This document shows, one piece after another, positions 4,745 through 18,663 of a DNA stretch of 64,000 nt (position 1 is the first letter of the stretch; every line of letters begins with the position of its first letter). This DNA is from Accumulibacter sp. (GTDB taxonomy: Bacteria > Pseudomonadota > Gammaproteobacteria > Burkholderiales > Rhodocyclaceae). The stretch covers positions 1 to 64,000 of the forward strand of contig JACKLX010000016.1 of NCBI GenBank assembly GCA_024235695.1, written 5' to 3'. A program made the position numbers and the translations under genes. The notes under the pieces are model-generated. The model did not search any database and was not told the origin of the DNA. It saw nothing but the letters and a program-made list of their open reading frames with translations.

Positions 4745-5028
4745 ACCGCCTCGTCGCGCACCGTCTGCTGTCGGCGAATTTTACAGTCGCATCCTGGCCA
4801 GAACGGGAAGCGGCAATAAAGCAGACGCTTGGGTCGACGGTATGGATATTGCTTGAACCACGCCAGCCACCCGTTTCGTGCGTCGGAACAAGAACAGCGA
4901 TCGGGATGGCCGTTGGCCATCGGGCGGCGCGGATGTTGCTGCCGCTGCCAGTCAACAGCAAAGGAGGAGGACGGAGGAGAGCTTGGCGCTGCACAGGAAG
5001 CTGCATGCGGTTCCTGTCGCTGGCGCCG

Positions 5029-5173: not shown

Positions 5174-6226
5174 TCACCGCGCGGCACGCCACTGCGTTGG
5201 ATTGGCCTGTGCCCAGTTCCTGAACGCCCGCGAAAAGGCGTTCGGATCGTCGTAGCCCAGGGCGGTGGCGATCGCCGACACGGCCAGATGGGTGTTCTTG
5301 AGAAGCTGCTTTGCCAGCTCGAAGCGCGTCTGCCTGATCAATTCTTGCAGGTTCGTTCCCTCGTCCTCCAGGCGCCGCCGAAGTGTCCGCTCGTGCACCG
5401 CGAAGGCGTTCGCAACGGCCGCGCCCGACGCCATGCCGCTCAAGACCATTTGTGGCAGAACACGTTCCACCTGCGCTGCGAAGCTCGCCTGACCCCTGGC
5501 TTCGGCGGCGTGGATCGCCTCGGTCAAGCGTTCGTGGATCGTCGCGTCGGCGCCTTCGATGGCTCTGTCGAGCCACGACGACGCGAAGACCAATCCCGAT
5601 ATTTCGGCGTCGAAGCTGACCGTCGAGTGGAATGCCTGGTGATAGGGCGCGATGTTGTCTGGTTGGCGGCGCGAGAACTGGACGCGCAGTGGCTTCCAGA
5701 CGGGCCCGCAGAGGTCGGCCAGGATGCGGTAGCCAATGCTGAGCGCAGCATCCTGAATCTGCGCGAGTCCGGGCAGACCGTGGTGGAATAGCGAATAGCC
5801 GAGAATCACGCACGAGGTGTCGGCAGCGAGCAGCAGCGGCGCGGCGCCGCGGTCGTGGATGTGGAAAAACCGCAGCAGGCCATGAATCGCCGCGCCGACC
5901 GTCGGCGAATGACGCAGCACGCCGCCGAGCGGGCCGAGGCCCGGCAGCTCGAAGCGTTCGCCGACCAGCAGTCCGAAGTGATCACAGCCGGTGAGCGCGG
6001 CGCAGTTCGCCAGGAGACCGCCGAGAGCCTCGATGGCGATACGATTGTCGGGATCATCGAACAGCGTCCGATCGACGCCGGCTTGCGCAAACGCATCGTT
6101 CGGACTGACGCCCAACTCGGCGAGGACAGCCGGGATCGCCAGCGTCGGGCCGACCCGAATCTCGCCTGGCCCGCTGGTCGACAGCGAAGCCCACGGCGGC
6201 GCCTCTGACCCGGGGTGGTTGTTCAT
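5174..6226 (-). CDS. AraC-family transcriptional regulator
   Basis: The 350-residue product has the layout of AraC regulators with an 'Arabinose_bd'-type N-terminal domain (about 35-225, including 'FGLLVGERFELPGLGPLGGVLRHS' split over the domain start) and a C-terminal AraC double helix-turn-helix (about 260-350). The HTH region contains 'VHERTLRRRLEDEGT' and 'ATALGYDDPNAFSRAFRNW', the typical second recognition helix. ATG 6226 was chosen because GGAG lies seven bases upstream; the upstream in-frame stretch is unlike coding sequence. The gene diverges from the sulfatase gene, and a perfect 8-bp dyad in the shared spacer is a candidate binding site. The likely role is control of the sulfatase-DUF1254 pair; the inducer is unknown. 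Confidence 0.88.
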   Translation of the reverse strand: MNNHPGSEAPPWASLSTSGPGEIRVGPTLAIPAVLAELGVSPNDAFAQAGVDRTLFDDPDNRIAIEALGGLLANCAALTGCDHFGLLVGERFELPGLGPLGGVLRHSPTVGAAIHGLLRFFHIHDRGAAPLLLAADTSCVILGYSLFHHGLPGLAQIQDAALSIGYRILADLCGPVWKPLRVQFSRRQPDNIAPYHQAFHSTVSFDAEISGLVFASSWLDRAIEGADATIHERLTEAIHAAEARGQASFAAQVERVLPQMVLSGMASGAAVANAFAVHERTLRRRLEDEGTNLQELIRQTRFELAKQLLKNTHLAVSAIATALGYDDPNAFSRAFRNWAQANPTQWRAAR

Positions 6227-6339
6227 TGGCGTGCTCCGATCCTCACTGTAACTACACTTTGGTGCACCGGTCTGGTGCGTTGCGGCCAGCGTTGGCGCGG
6301 CGACCAGTATGGGCAAAGAATGTCCGGAACTGCAAGACG

Positions 6340-6377
6340 CCATACGGCGCAAAGTTGTTATATTCGATCCCGTATGG
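6340..6377. promoter_or_regulatory. inverted repeat around the sulfatase promoter (candidate AraC-type operator)
   Basis: CCATACGG (6340-6347) and CCGTATGG (6370-6377) are perfect inverted copies separated by 22 bases. The spacer contains TATATT (6359-6364), a good -10 candidate for the sulfatase gene. The centre-to-centre distance is 30 bases, close to three DNA turns, so both half-sites could face the same side. There is no good -35, which fits an activator-dependent promoter. Confidence 0.45.
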
Positions 6378-16521: not shown

Positions 16522-17334
16522 TCAGCCGTGCGTCACCCGGCGACGCGTCATCACCAGCCCGACCAGGCAAAGGCCCAGGAGGGCAACCGAGGTGGGTTCG
16601 GGAACCTGGGTCCCTTCACCCTGAAAGGTCAGTCCATCAATGGTGTTGTTGATGTCACCAAATGGTTTGAAACCGGCGCCAAGCAGCGTGCCGGTAAGAC
16701 TGTACGGGGCGACCAGTCCGCCGGCCTGGCCGACCCACAGGATGCTGCTGTCGGGATCGTAGGCCAGCGCACCTGCCAGGTTGGGTGTCGTGAACTGCGG
16801 CGTGAAGATGTTGGTGCCGGGATCCCAGGTTCCAACTTGTTGTGCGCCCCAGTTTGTGATCCACAACTGGCTTCCTACCAGGGCCATGCCGACGACGCTC
16901 GGTACCGAAAAGGTCTGGATGACGGCGCCAGTGACCGGGTCGATCTGCTGGATGTTGTCGGGGTAGTGGGCGTGATAGAGCTTGCCGCCACTGAACTGCA
17001 TTTCTTCGTTGCAGCAGTTGTTGGGGAAACCGGCGGTAACGGTACTCAGCACATTGCCATCGTAATCGATCGTACGCAGGGTATTGGCTTCCGGTTCGCC
17101 CGCGTAGAGATACCCTGGGCCATCGCCCAGACCGTTCAGGTTGAAAGTCAGAGGAATGCCGATCTGGCTGACGAAGTTGGCGCCGTTGACCGTTGCCTTG
17201 ACGAGGGTGCTGAACCCGGTGCCGGCGAATTCCTCATTATCGGTGCCGATAAAAAGCACTCCAGCGGAGGCAACTTGCGCCGTTGCGCAGGCGGCCAGCG
17301 CCAGACTGCCGAGCAGGGACTTGGACGACTTCAT
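16522..17334 (-). CDS. PEP-CTERM sorting-domain protein, beta-propeller-like
   Basis: 270 residues with an N-terminal signal peptide (about 1-24) and a C-terminal PEP-CTERM tail: VPEPTSVALLGL, a hydrophobic segment, then an Arg cluster (TRRR) near residue 265. Such tails are recognised by exosortase and removed as the protein is moved to the surface or exopolysaccharide. The body has repeated blades such as 'LYAGEPEANTLRTIDYDGNV' and 'LWITNWGAQQVGTWDPGT', suggesting an SMP-30/NHL-like propeller; this part is inferred. AAGGAG is upstream of the ATG. A sigma-54-type promoter and upstream dyad lie 127-212 bases upstream, in the same arrangement as at the next PEP-CTERM gene. No exosortase gene is in the window. 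Confidence 0.88.
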   Translation of the reverse strand: MKSSKSLLGSLALAACATAQVASAGVLFIGTDNEEFAGTGFSTLVKATVNGANFVSQIGIPLTFNLNGLGDGPGYLYAGEPEANTLRTIDYDGNVLSTVTAGFPNNCCNEEMQFSGGKLYHAHYPDNIQQIDPVTGAVIQTFSVPSVVGMALVGSQLWITNWGAQQVGTWDPGTNIFTPQFTTPNLAGALAYDPDSSILWVGQAGGLVAPYSLTGTLLGAGFKPFGDINNTIDGLTFQGEGTQVPEPTSVALLGLCLVGLVMTRRRVTHG

Positions 17335-17460
17335 GGCAACACTCCTTGTGAAGGGTCGAAGTACGTGAGGCTGCTACGCCAGCTACCGTGTGAGGCGCAC
17401 GCCCCGAGAATACGCTCGCGCGTGCCTAGCACGCGCTGTTGAGCGTCGTGGCAGAGAGCA

Positions 17461-17476
17461 AGCACAACTTGTGCCC
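17461..17476 (-). promoter_or_regulatory. sigma-54 (-24/-12) promoter of the first PEP-CTERM gene
   Basis: On the minus strand GGGCACAAGTTGTGCT has GG (17475-17474) and GC (17463-17462) with the required ten-base spacing, and keeps GGCAC and TGCT of the consensus TGGCACGNNNNTTGCW. The predicted start near 17450 gives a leader of about 116 bases, nearly the same as for the second PEP-CTERM gene. Confidence 0.6.
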
Positions 17477-17527
17477 TATTGCTAAGGTATTGGTTTGTTG
17501 GAGTTTACGTTCTTCACCGTGAACCAA

Positions 17528-17546
17528 CTGTAAAGAATTCCGACAG
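17528..17546. promoter_or_regulatory. upstream activator dyad, first PEP-CTERM promoter
   Basis: On the plus strand CTGTAAAGAATTCCGACAG is an imperfect dyad (CTGT-N11-ACAG). It lies 51 bases upstream of the -24 element. It matches the element at 18645-18663 at 14 of 19 positions, with common core TGTAA-N4-TTCCGACAG. Confidence 0.6.
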
Positions 17547-17778
17547 ATTGACCGATCACGGCGCGGGCGCAGCCGACAGCTGCCATCACGTCTTCGCAAG
17601 GAAAGCCGTTATACGTGCATGACGTCGCGGAGAAGGTCTGTTTCTTGGCCCCCGCGTGCGCGATCGGCTGGCGAGAATGCAACAGGCATGAGTCCGCGAC
17701 GACCAGGCCAGACGCTGGCGGCGCTTGCCCCGGGTGTCGGTGGGCGACCCTGCGGCGCTGGCTGGCTCGCTCGGCGGG

Positions 17779-17807
17779 TCAACGAAACGGGGTCGCGTCA
17801 GCGACCC
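17779..17807 (-). terminator. terminator of the second PEP-CTERM gene
   Basis: GGGGTCGC (17788-17795) and GCGACCCC (17800-17807) form a perfect 8-bp stem with a four-base loop. On the minus strand it is followed by GTTTCGTT. It lies about 57 bases past the stop codon at 17865. Confidence 0.55.
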
Positions 17808-17864
17808 CGAATTGCCGCCGCGAGCGGCTCACAAGCCCAGGTACCCGGCCTTGCCGGGTCTTGC

Positions 17865-18434
17865 TTACCGCGATCTACGGCGCGTCGCGGCGAGACCCAT
17901 CATCGTCAAGCCGAGCAGGAACAGCGTTCCGGGTTCGGGTACCGCATTCCCCTCCACGGTCGTGCGCGTGTCGAGTCCGAGTGCGATCGATCCCCCGCCA
18001 CTGGGAACCTCATTGCTGACCACCAGCGCCAGCGACGAGAATTCGCCGGCGATTGCGGCAAAGGACAGGGCGACGTTGGTCAGCCCGGTGCCATCGGCGT
18101 CCGACCAACTCCAGTCGCCGACATCGATGCCATTGACCAGAACATCCCAGTCGACCGATTGTCCGGCTGCCAGTACATTCTGGGTGACATTGAGATCCAT
18201 CGACAGCGAGCTGACGTTGAAGAGGCCGGTGGCGGGATACCCCTGCGACACCGAGTCGCCCCGCGCCATGCTCCAGAAGTAGCCGACCTCGGTCGCCGAC
18301 AGGGAGCCGACCGACGCCACGACGGTCGCCAGGCTGGACGGGAAGGTGACGGTCACGGACGCGGCTTGTGCCACTCCGGCAGTGGCGACGGCCAGGGCCG
18401 TGGCGGCAACGGTGTTGCGCAGGCAATGCTTCAT
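17865..18434 (-). CDS. PEP-CTERM sorting-domain protein, unknown body
   Basis: 189 residues with a signal peptide (about 1-25) and a PEP-CTERM tail beginning near residue 165: VPEPGTLFLLGL, a hydrophobic stretch, then TRRRSR. The body between is Ser/Ala/Thr-rich and beta-like, with a regular 'VDWDVLVNGIDVGDWSWSDADG' region (two short blocks). I do not recognise it. It is presumably exosortase-processed and deposited at the cell surface or in the matrix. It has its own sigma-54-type promoter with an upstream dyad, and a terminator downstream, so it is a single-gene unit regulated like the PEP-CTERM gene before it. Confidence 0.87.
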   Translation of the reverse strand: MKHCLRNTVAATALAVATAGVAQAASVTVTFPSSLATVVASVGSLSATEVGYFWSMARGDSVSQGYPATGLFNVSSLSMDLNVTQNVLAAGQSVDWDVLVNGIDVGDWSWSDADGTGLTNVALSFAAIAGEFSSLALVVSNEVPSGGGSIALGLDTRTTVEGNAVPEPGTLFLLGLTMMGLAATRRRSR

Positions 18435-18567
18435 TTTCTTTATCTCCGAATGGGTTGGATACGTCGGCCCGGGATTCCACTCACCTGCGCCCGATTACCA
18501 GACGCTGGTCGTCGGTCGCTGCGGTGGGCCGGAAAATCTGAAGCTCCCGAACCTTGCCCAACTTCAA

Positions 18568-18583
18568 AGCAATTAGCGGGCCA
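18568..18583 (-). promoter_or_regulatory. sigma-54 (-24/-12) promoter of the second PEP-CTERM gene
   Basis: On the minus strand TGGCCCGCTAATTGCT agrees with TGGCACGNNNNTTGCW at every fixed position except one (C for A). GG is at 18582-18581 and GC at 18570-18569. The predicted start near 18557 gives a leader of about 123 bases. Confidence 0.75.
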
Positions 18584-18644
18584 GAAAAAAATTTGCTTAT
18601 GGAACAGTCGCATGCTGACTTGTGCCTGCCGTTTGGAGCTTGTC

Positions 18645-18663
18645 TTGTAAGATTTTCCGACAG
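18645..18663. promoter_or_regulatory. upstream activator dyad, second PEP-CTERM promoter
   Basis: On the plus strand TTGTAAGATTTTCCGACAG lies 61 bases upstream of the -24 element. The matching site at the first PEP-CTERM gene is 51 bases away, so the offsets differ by exactly one helical turn. This is the expected position of an enhancer-binding protein site. Confidence 0.6.

Follow-up and report, generated by a model that had tools for sequence, protein, structure and literature searches.

Sigma-54 promoters of two neighbouring PEP-CTERM genes in an Accumulibacter genome: probable members of a PrsR-type regulon with box-to-promoter distances in steps of about 11 bp

The window, that is, the whole stretch of 64,000 nucleotides analysed here, is part of contig C16 of an Accumulibacter sp. 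genome (3.83 Mb, 32 contigs). It contains two neighbouring minus-strand genes whose products both carry a C-terminal PEP-CTERM sorting signal (TIGR02595), as the preliminary description of this DNA had recognised, and each gene is preceded by a sigma-54 promoter and, farther upstream, by a PrsR-type box:

16522..17334, minus strand: PEP-CTERM gene 1 (270 aa); TIGR02595 at 20.7 bits (cut-off 16), PF07589 above cut-off
17476-17461, minus strand: sigma-54 -24/-12 promoter of gene 1, GGGCACAAGTTGTGCT, GG-N10-GC, 10/12 consensus positions
17483..17495, minus strand: IHF-like site in the gene 1 spacer, AACCAATACCTTA, 8/9 consensus, starting 19 bp before the promoter
17529..17545, minus strand: PrsR-type box (Haft motif 1) of gene 1, 17-mer TGTCGGAATTCTTTACA in gene direction, spacing 52
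17865..18434, minus strand: PEP-CTERM gene 2 (189 aa); TIGR02595 at 25.3 bits (cut-off 16), PF07589 above cut-off
18583-18568, minus strand: sigma-54 -24/-12 promoter of gene 2, TGGCCCGCTAATTGCT, GG-N10-GC, 11/12 consensus positions
18646..18662, minus strand: PrsR-type box (Haft motif 1) of gene 2, 17-mer TGTCGGAAAATCTTACA in gene direction, spacing 62

The two GG-N10-GC promoters are present where they had been described, the weaker match on the 12-position score being that of gene 1. Sigma-54-dependent promoters require RpoN and start transcription about 12 nt after the GC; by extrapolation, the start sites would lie at 17450 and 18557. Inside promoter 1, GCACAACTTGTGC (17463-17475) forms a perfect inverted repeat, probably arising by chance from overlap between the -24 and -12 elements. 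On the plus strand, the boxes read TGTAA-AGAA-TTCCGACAG (17529-17546) and TGTAA-GATT-TTCCGACAG (18646-18663), and these letters confirm that the two upstream elements are identical at 14 of 19 positions. In gene direction, both follow the common pattern TGTCGGAANNNNTTACA and close with TTACA, as TTTACA in box 1 and CTTACA in box 2. The distances of 52 and 62, measured from the 17-mer box, agree with those of 51 and 61 reported before, which were counted from a 19-mer. The IHF-like site of gene 1 is placed as in other promoters of the 248-pair set described below; a consensus scan of the corresponding places in the gene 2 spacer found nothing recognisable as an IHF site (best match, 5/9). Collectively, the arrangement of promoter and box is confirmed as real, and the earlier interpretation of the promoter pair is supported.

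This arrangement is a further case of an element already known. Haft et al. 2006 (PMC1569441), in the parts of the text considered here, found motif 1 and motif 2 upstream of 99 out of 167 proteobacterial PEP-CTERM genes, most of them single and with a long upstream region, and described a 17-nt box ending in TTTACA, a spacer with a mean of 62.8 (SD 10.6, range 32-92) and then the -24/-12 element; the distribution of the motif was matched to PrsR, PrsK and PrsT, and PrsK/PrsR were proposed, with PrsR as the likely activator. The window resembles that element in its boxes, in its -24/-12 promoters at 52 and 62 nt, in its PEP-CTERM genes and in the presence of prsK, prsR and prsT in the genome. 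In the searched text of PMC1569441, IHF is absent as a word, "helical" occurs only in the title of a reference, and spacing is given as mean, SD and range.

Across the genome, the box pattern occurs 7 times without mismatch, 14 times with one and 23 times with two, that is, 44 boxes with up to two mismatches against 19 for the reversed pattern. A promoter-like match (at least 9/12 consensus positions) lies 41-97 bp away on the TTACA side of all 21 boxes with no or one mismatch and on the other side of none; for boxes with two mismatches, the corresponding counts are 8/23 and 1/23, and 196 of 4000 random window positions had such a match. The orientation of the box is fixed in this genome, and the box itself is asymmetric, facing its promoter the same way in all 21 near-perfect copies, which rules out a strict dyad for the upstream element, described earlier as a dyad. 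One of these 21, at C15:98978, has a weak promoter only. It is one of two same-direction boxes 214 bp apart (G000:C15:98978-98994 and 99192-99208), before a gene truncated at the edge of the contig, and could be a duplicate of the one at C15:99192; repeats of motif 1 were also noted by Haft et al. 2006 (PMC1569441, in the part considered).

The preliminary description named a lack of enrichment before PEP-CTERM genes as grounds for refutation, and the counts do not refute its reading on that ground. The genome has 30 PF07589 hits, of which 28 exceed the cut-off, and by coordinates a box lies upstream of at least 17 of the 30, a lower bound because the upstream regions of several long genes fall outside the examined stretch. 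A matrix trained on other genomes added diverged boxes at C12:37021 and C1:221162, upstream of two further hits, and we read the site at C11:44425 as belonging to the hit at C11:42272, about 2 kb downstream. Boxes with phased promoters also precede genes lacking a PF07589 hit, among them that of a serralysin/RTX-like protein (G000:C1:205328) and one whose product has a weak pre-peptidase match below the Pfam cut-off (G000:C6:10801). Among the seven examined products behind boxes without a PEP-CTERM hit, four gave no Pfam match and one a weak, below-cut-off match of LuxR type.

The genome encodes the expected regulatory system. The genes prsK, prsR and prsT are adjacent (TIGR02915, TIGR02916 and TIGR02917 at 741, 845 and 908 bits, all above cut-off) and adjoin an EpsB_2 glycosyltransferase gene; a single protein exceeds the PrsR cut-off, and there is one rpoN (469 bits) and one ihfA above cut-off (150.5 bits). 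Among 200 sampled genomes of the order, the strict box-promoter pattern is found in 44 and PrsR above cut-off in 48, both together in 39, the pattern only in 5, PrsR only in 9 and neither in 147 (39/44 versus 9/156; Fisher p = 2.7e-27, with shared ancestry ignored), and the reversed-pattern control has no hit among the matches listed. The mismatches with a role of PrsR are thus the 5 of 44 box-positive genomes without PrsR above cut-off and the 9 of 48 PrsR-positive genomes without the strict pattern. Within the genus, the pattern is found in 28 of 28 genomes, with a single match for the reversed control. In the phylum sample, it is found in 20 of 299 genomes and the reversed control in 3, so that some of the 20 are likely chance matches. 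Together with the gene content, the co-occurrence lends support to the PrsR/PrsK-type activator suggested earlier for the window, as far as sequence comparison can indicate it.

Box-promoter pairs were collected from the own genome, the genus, many genera, the phylum and the order by matching set letters of the box and allowing a gap of limited length, which makes spacings of 25-119 visible in the own genome and of about 36-97 in the relative sets. The genus set comprises 30 loci among the matches listed (3 further rows were lost in de-duplication), the many-genera set at least 80 loci (82 matches, 13 of them set aside), the phylum set 29 loci of 46 listed rows and the order set the listed rows outside the own genome. 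Promoters below 9/12 were dropped and pairs more than 60% alike by ungapped identity were merged, reducing 267 pairs to 248; such de-duplication may miss gapped copies and removes ancestry only in part. The distances in these 248 pairs cluster in six teeth at intervals of about 11 bp, with very little between them: 42.5 bp (n = 11), 51.9 (38), 63.0 (123), 73.9 (30), 85.2 (36) and 95.9 (9). The slope of the comb is 10.93 +/- 0.08 bp per tooth, or 11.06 +/- 0.09 when its shortest tooth is omitted; 210 of 247 distances lie within 2 bp of the comb and 241 of 247 within 0.3 turn, leaving 6 of 247 farther off against 99 expected from an even spread. The periodicity peaks at a period of 11.08 (bootstrap 10.94-11.28) with R = 0.747, compared with null maxima of 0.264 in 500 jittered sets and 0.193 in 1000 smoothed-density sets.

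By subset, the period is 11.38 in the own genome (n = 29), 11.20 in the genus (n = 30), 11.14 in the order (n = 105) and 10.72 in the many-genera set (n = 65), and the phylum remainder (n = 19 after de-duplication) has no peak near 11 bp. The fitted 10.93 +/- 0.08 does not favour a uniform step of 10.5 bp, but we claim no firm difference from 10.5-10.9 bp because the many-genera set alone peaks at 10.72. Both window promoters, at 52 and 62, sit on teeth. Phasing by one helical turn, which the preliminary description had proposed for them, is thus borne out in 248 promoters, although the two spacings differ by 10 bp, 1 bp less than the mean step (about 11); from the two window promoters alone, "exactly one turn" was weak, a match to within about 1 bp having, by our own estimate, a chance of about 1/4.

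The 13 matches that were set aside come, by record title, from Bacteroidota, Bacillota, Actinomycetota and other distant groups, were chosen after the match lengths had been seen and are likely due to chance. These few rows have no clear comb: three of the 13 deviate by more than 0.3 turn, where an even spread would give about 5. When they are restored to the many-genera set, R is lower but the peak stays (0.685 at a period of 10.85, n = 82), and when the nine that pass the filter are added to the 248 pairs, R is 0.713 at 11.15. Three loci that were retained are, judged by title, not from Proteobacteria (L150, L157 and L172; two Nitrospira-type and one other bacterium), and their spacings of 61, 52 and 52 are on the comb, so the element may extend beyond that phylum. 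In the cross-genus set, seven of the eight spacers on the 42-43 bp tooth, the shortest, are from records titled as Sphingomonadales (L112-L114, L126, L135, L155 and L166), a lineage that may use a tighter loop; in the whole set, a positioned IHF match of at least 7/9 is found in 4 of 11 spacers of 41-43 bp.

Many of the spacers also contain an IHF-like site. With the 9-position consensus as given in PMC7962754 (in the part considered), a match of at least 8/9 is found in 115 of 248 spacers, compared with a mean of 26.5 +/- 5.0 and a maximum of 39 in 100 shuffle runs, and a full 9/9 match in 27 of 248 (shuffle mean 1.8, maximum 6). A strong match is absent from the remaining 133 and from window promoter 2, so that an IHF site in every promoter is not supported. 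The reversed consensus gave 21 of 248 matches, of which 2 were positioned, and a flank control gave 14/172 upstream of the box and 9/172 downstream of the promoter against 70/172 in the spacers.

The site is not only frequent but also positioned in many relatives: for 92 of 248 spacers, the best hit falls at one of two places, 18-20 or 29-31 bp upstream of the promoter (mean 3.06, maximum 9 in 100 shuffle runs). In the 52 and 63 classes, the end of a forward copy and the start of a reverse copy mostly fall 18-20 bp before the promoter, and in the 74 and 85 classes mostly 29-31 bp before it. Forward (70) and reverse (45) copies are mirror images about one point, which would fit a bending protein with pseudo-symmetry, such as IHF, if it can bind either way round. 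The pattern was first seen in the many-genera set and recurs in 71 of 183 spacers of the other four sets, a count that is not a clean hold-out because the two places were fixed after all sets had been seen. Without any IHF input, an alignment of the 61-65 class (115 spacers) has information peaks at the positions expected for the forward site and for the far end of the reverse site. The distance from box to bend is about 33, 44 or 55 bp and that from bend to promoter about 8 (five cases), 19 or 30 bp, which suggests that the two segments each change by whole turns.

We consider it very probable, judging from these sequence patterns, that the two window promoters are members of a genome-wide PrsR-type regulon controlled through a phase-locked loop of PrsR, IHF and sigma-54. 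In such a loop, phosphorylated PrsR would bind the 17-bp box, a sharp bend would be introduced into the spacer by IHF or a similar protein, roughly 19 or 30 bp upstream of the promoter, and PrsR would then contact the sigma-54 RNA polymerase waiting at the -24/-12 element, upon which the promoter would open. A loop this short would close well only with the box on the right face of the helix, and spacers would therefore change by whole turns.

It is unlikely that the direct geometry of PrsR and polymerase alone produces the phasing, with the AT-rich spacer element serving as an UP-like or flexible stretch rather than as an IHF site. In its favour, the comb is weaker but still present in the 39 spacers without an IHF match of at least 7 (R = 0.73; maximum of 300 null sets, 0.57), from which it follows that IHF is not needed to explain the phasing, and the flank of the IHF-like element is AT-rich (0.69 versus 0.61 for the spacer). 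Against it stands a non-palindromic IHF consensus that occurs in both orientations, mirrored, about 30-fold above dinucleotide shuffles at that place (which was picked post hoc), with no such excess for the reversed consensus. Shared ancestry or the copying of paralogous promoters, generating the comb without selection on phase, appears highly improbable: related genomes do have promoters in common and some spacers contain tandem repeats, but the set was de-duplicated at 60% ungapped identity (through which gapped copies may slip), the comb is seen in the many-genera set on its own (n = 65, R = 0.835), and six teeth with near-empty gaps would call for repeated whole-turn changes.

The box might instead be bound by another sigma-54 activator of the same genome, which we regard as quite improbable. 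Eight proteins score above 280 bits with the PrsR model, below its cut-off of 502.6, and in the part of PMC4641369 considered here one common Desulfovibrio motif is predicted for two activators, DVU0110 and DVUA0057, for which reason PrsR, by analogy, need not be the only binder of the box. Against a different activator stand the single protein above the PrsR cut-off, the co-occurrence of box and PrsR among the 200 genomes and the match by profile between the motif distribution and PrsR in PMC1569441 (part considered). In support of the PrsR reading, DVUA0057 of Desulfovibrio bound its five predicted PEP-CTERM targets, plus several other places, by DAP-chip, with no binding motif validated in that study (PMC3333781, part considered). 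A point that counts against the PrsR reading is that the flocs of an Aquincola prsK mutant were not restored by plasmid-borne prsK or prsK-prsR (PMC9850573, part considered).

The proposed PrsR-IHF-sigma-54 loop has counterparts among known systems. According to the sections of PMC9850573 considered, the start of Aquincola pepA was mapped behind a -24/-12 element, is RpoN1-dependent and has a predicted enhancer upstream; the window is similar in its PEP-CTERM genes, -24/-12 promoters and predicted upstream enhancers, although pepA is a single gene and was studied experimentally, and a word search of the main text found no mention of IHF, helical or spacing. The 11-bp comb resembles the Vibrio qrr system (LuxO, sigma-54), where the loop lengths of 61 putative natural enhancers cluster in steps of about 11 bp (PMC4740811, part considered), albeit with another activator, in one genus, with tandem sites and loops of about 80-120 bp, and with no IHF site named in that part (section 10). 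RpoN promoters are known to have IHF acting between their enhancer and promoter (PMC7962754, part considered); here, an IHF-like site lies between activator site and promoter in many relatives and at window promoter 1 (8/9) but not at promoter 2 (5/9), and, unlike in those promoters, it occupies two places one turn apart, within one regulon, in many genera and in both orientations. What goes beyond print, as far as the open-licence literature is concerned, is the quantised spacing and the positioned IHF-like site at PEP-CTERM promoters: in the portions of that literature considered, we found no report of phasing or IHF at such promoters, and in two texts containing both "PEP-CTERM" and "integration host factor", the latter was traced to reference lists.

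In sludge bacteria, PEP-CTERM proteins have been associated with flocs and with surface polymers, and to our knowledge the switching of their genes has been little tested. The anatomy outlined here, with its box, bend site, promoter and allowed distances, yields precise predictions for mutants, and the comb provides hundreds of natural spacing variants bearing on how strictly an enhancer and a promoter share a face of the DNA in vivo. We are evenly divided on the broader proposition that the PrsR regulon acts as a natural ruler: box-to-bend and bend-to-promoter distances would each be restricted to whole turns (about 11 bp) in hundreds of promoters of Proteobacteria, through selection for a bent loop of constant geometry. 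If so, the interval between teeth would provide an in vivo measure of the helical repeat of DNA, and phase could serve as part of the evidence for locating promoters.

The window holds one further pair, on the plus strand:

4769..4785, plus strand: third PrsR-type box, 2 mismatches, spacing 52, on the comb
4819-4831, plus strand: IHF-like site of the third pair, 7/9
4838..4853, plus strand: sigma-54-like promoter of the third box, 9/12 positions

No gene was seen on the plus strand in the stretch that this promoter faces, and the next gene, encoding an AraC-type regulator (5174-6352), is on the opposite strand. The pair (4769-4853) may be a remnant, or may drive a small RNA or peptide. Elsewhere in the genome, a box at G000:C19:25085 is followed by a promoter at 85 bp and then by a small predicted protein (116 aa) without a Pfam match, the start of which we read as Tat-like.
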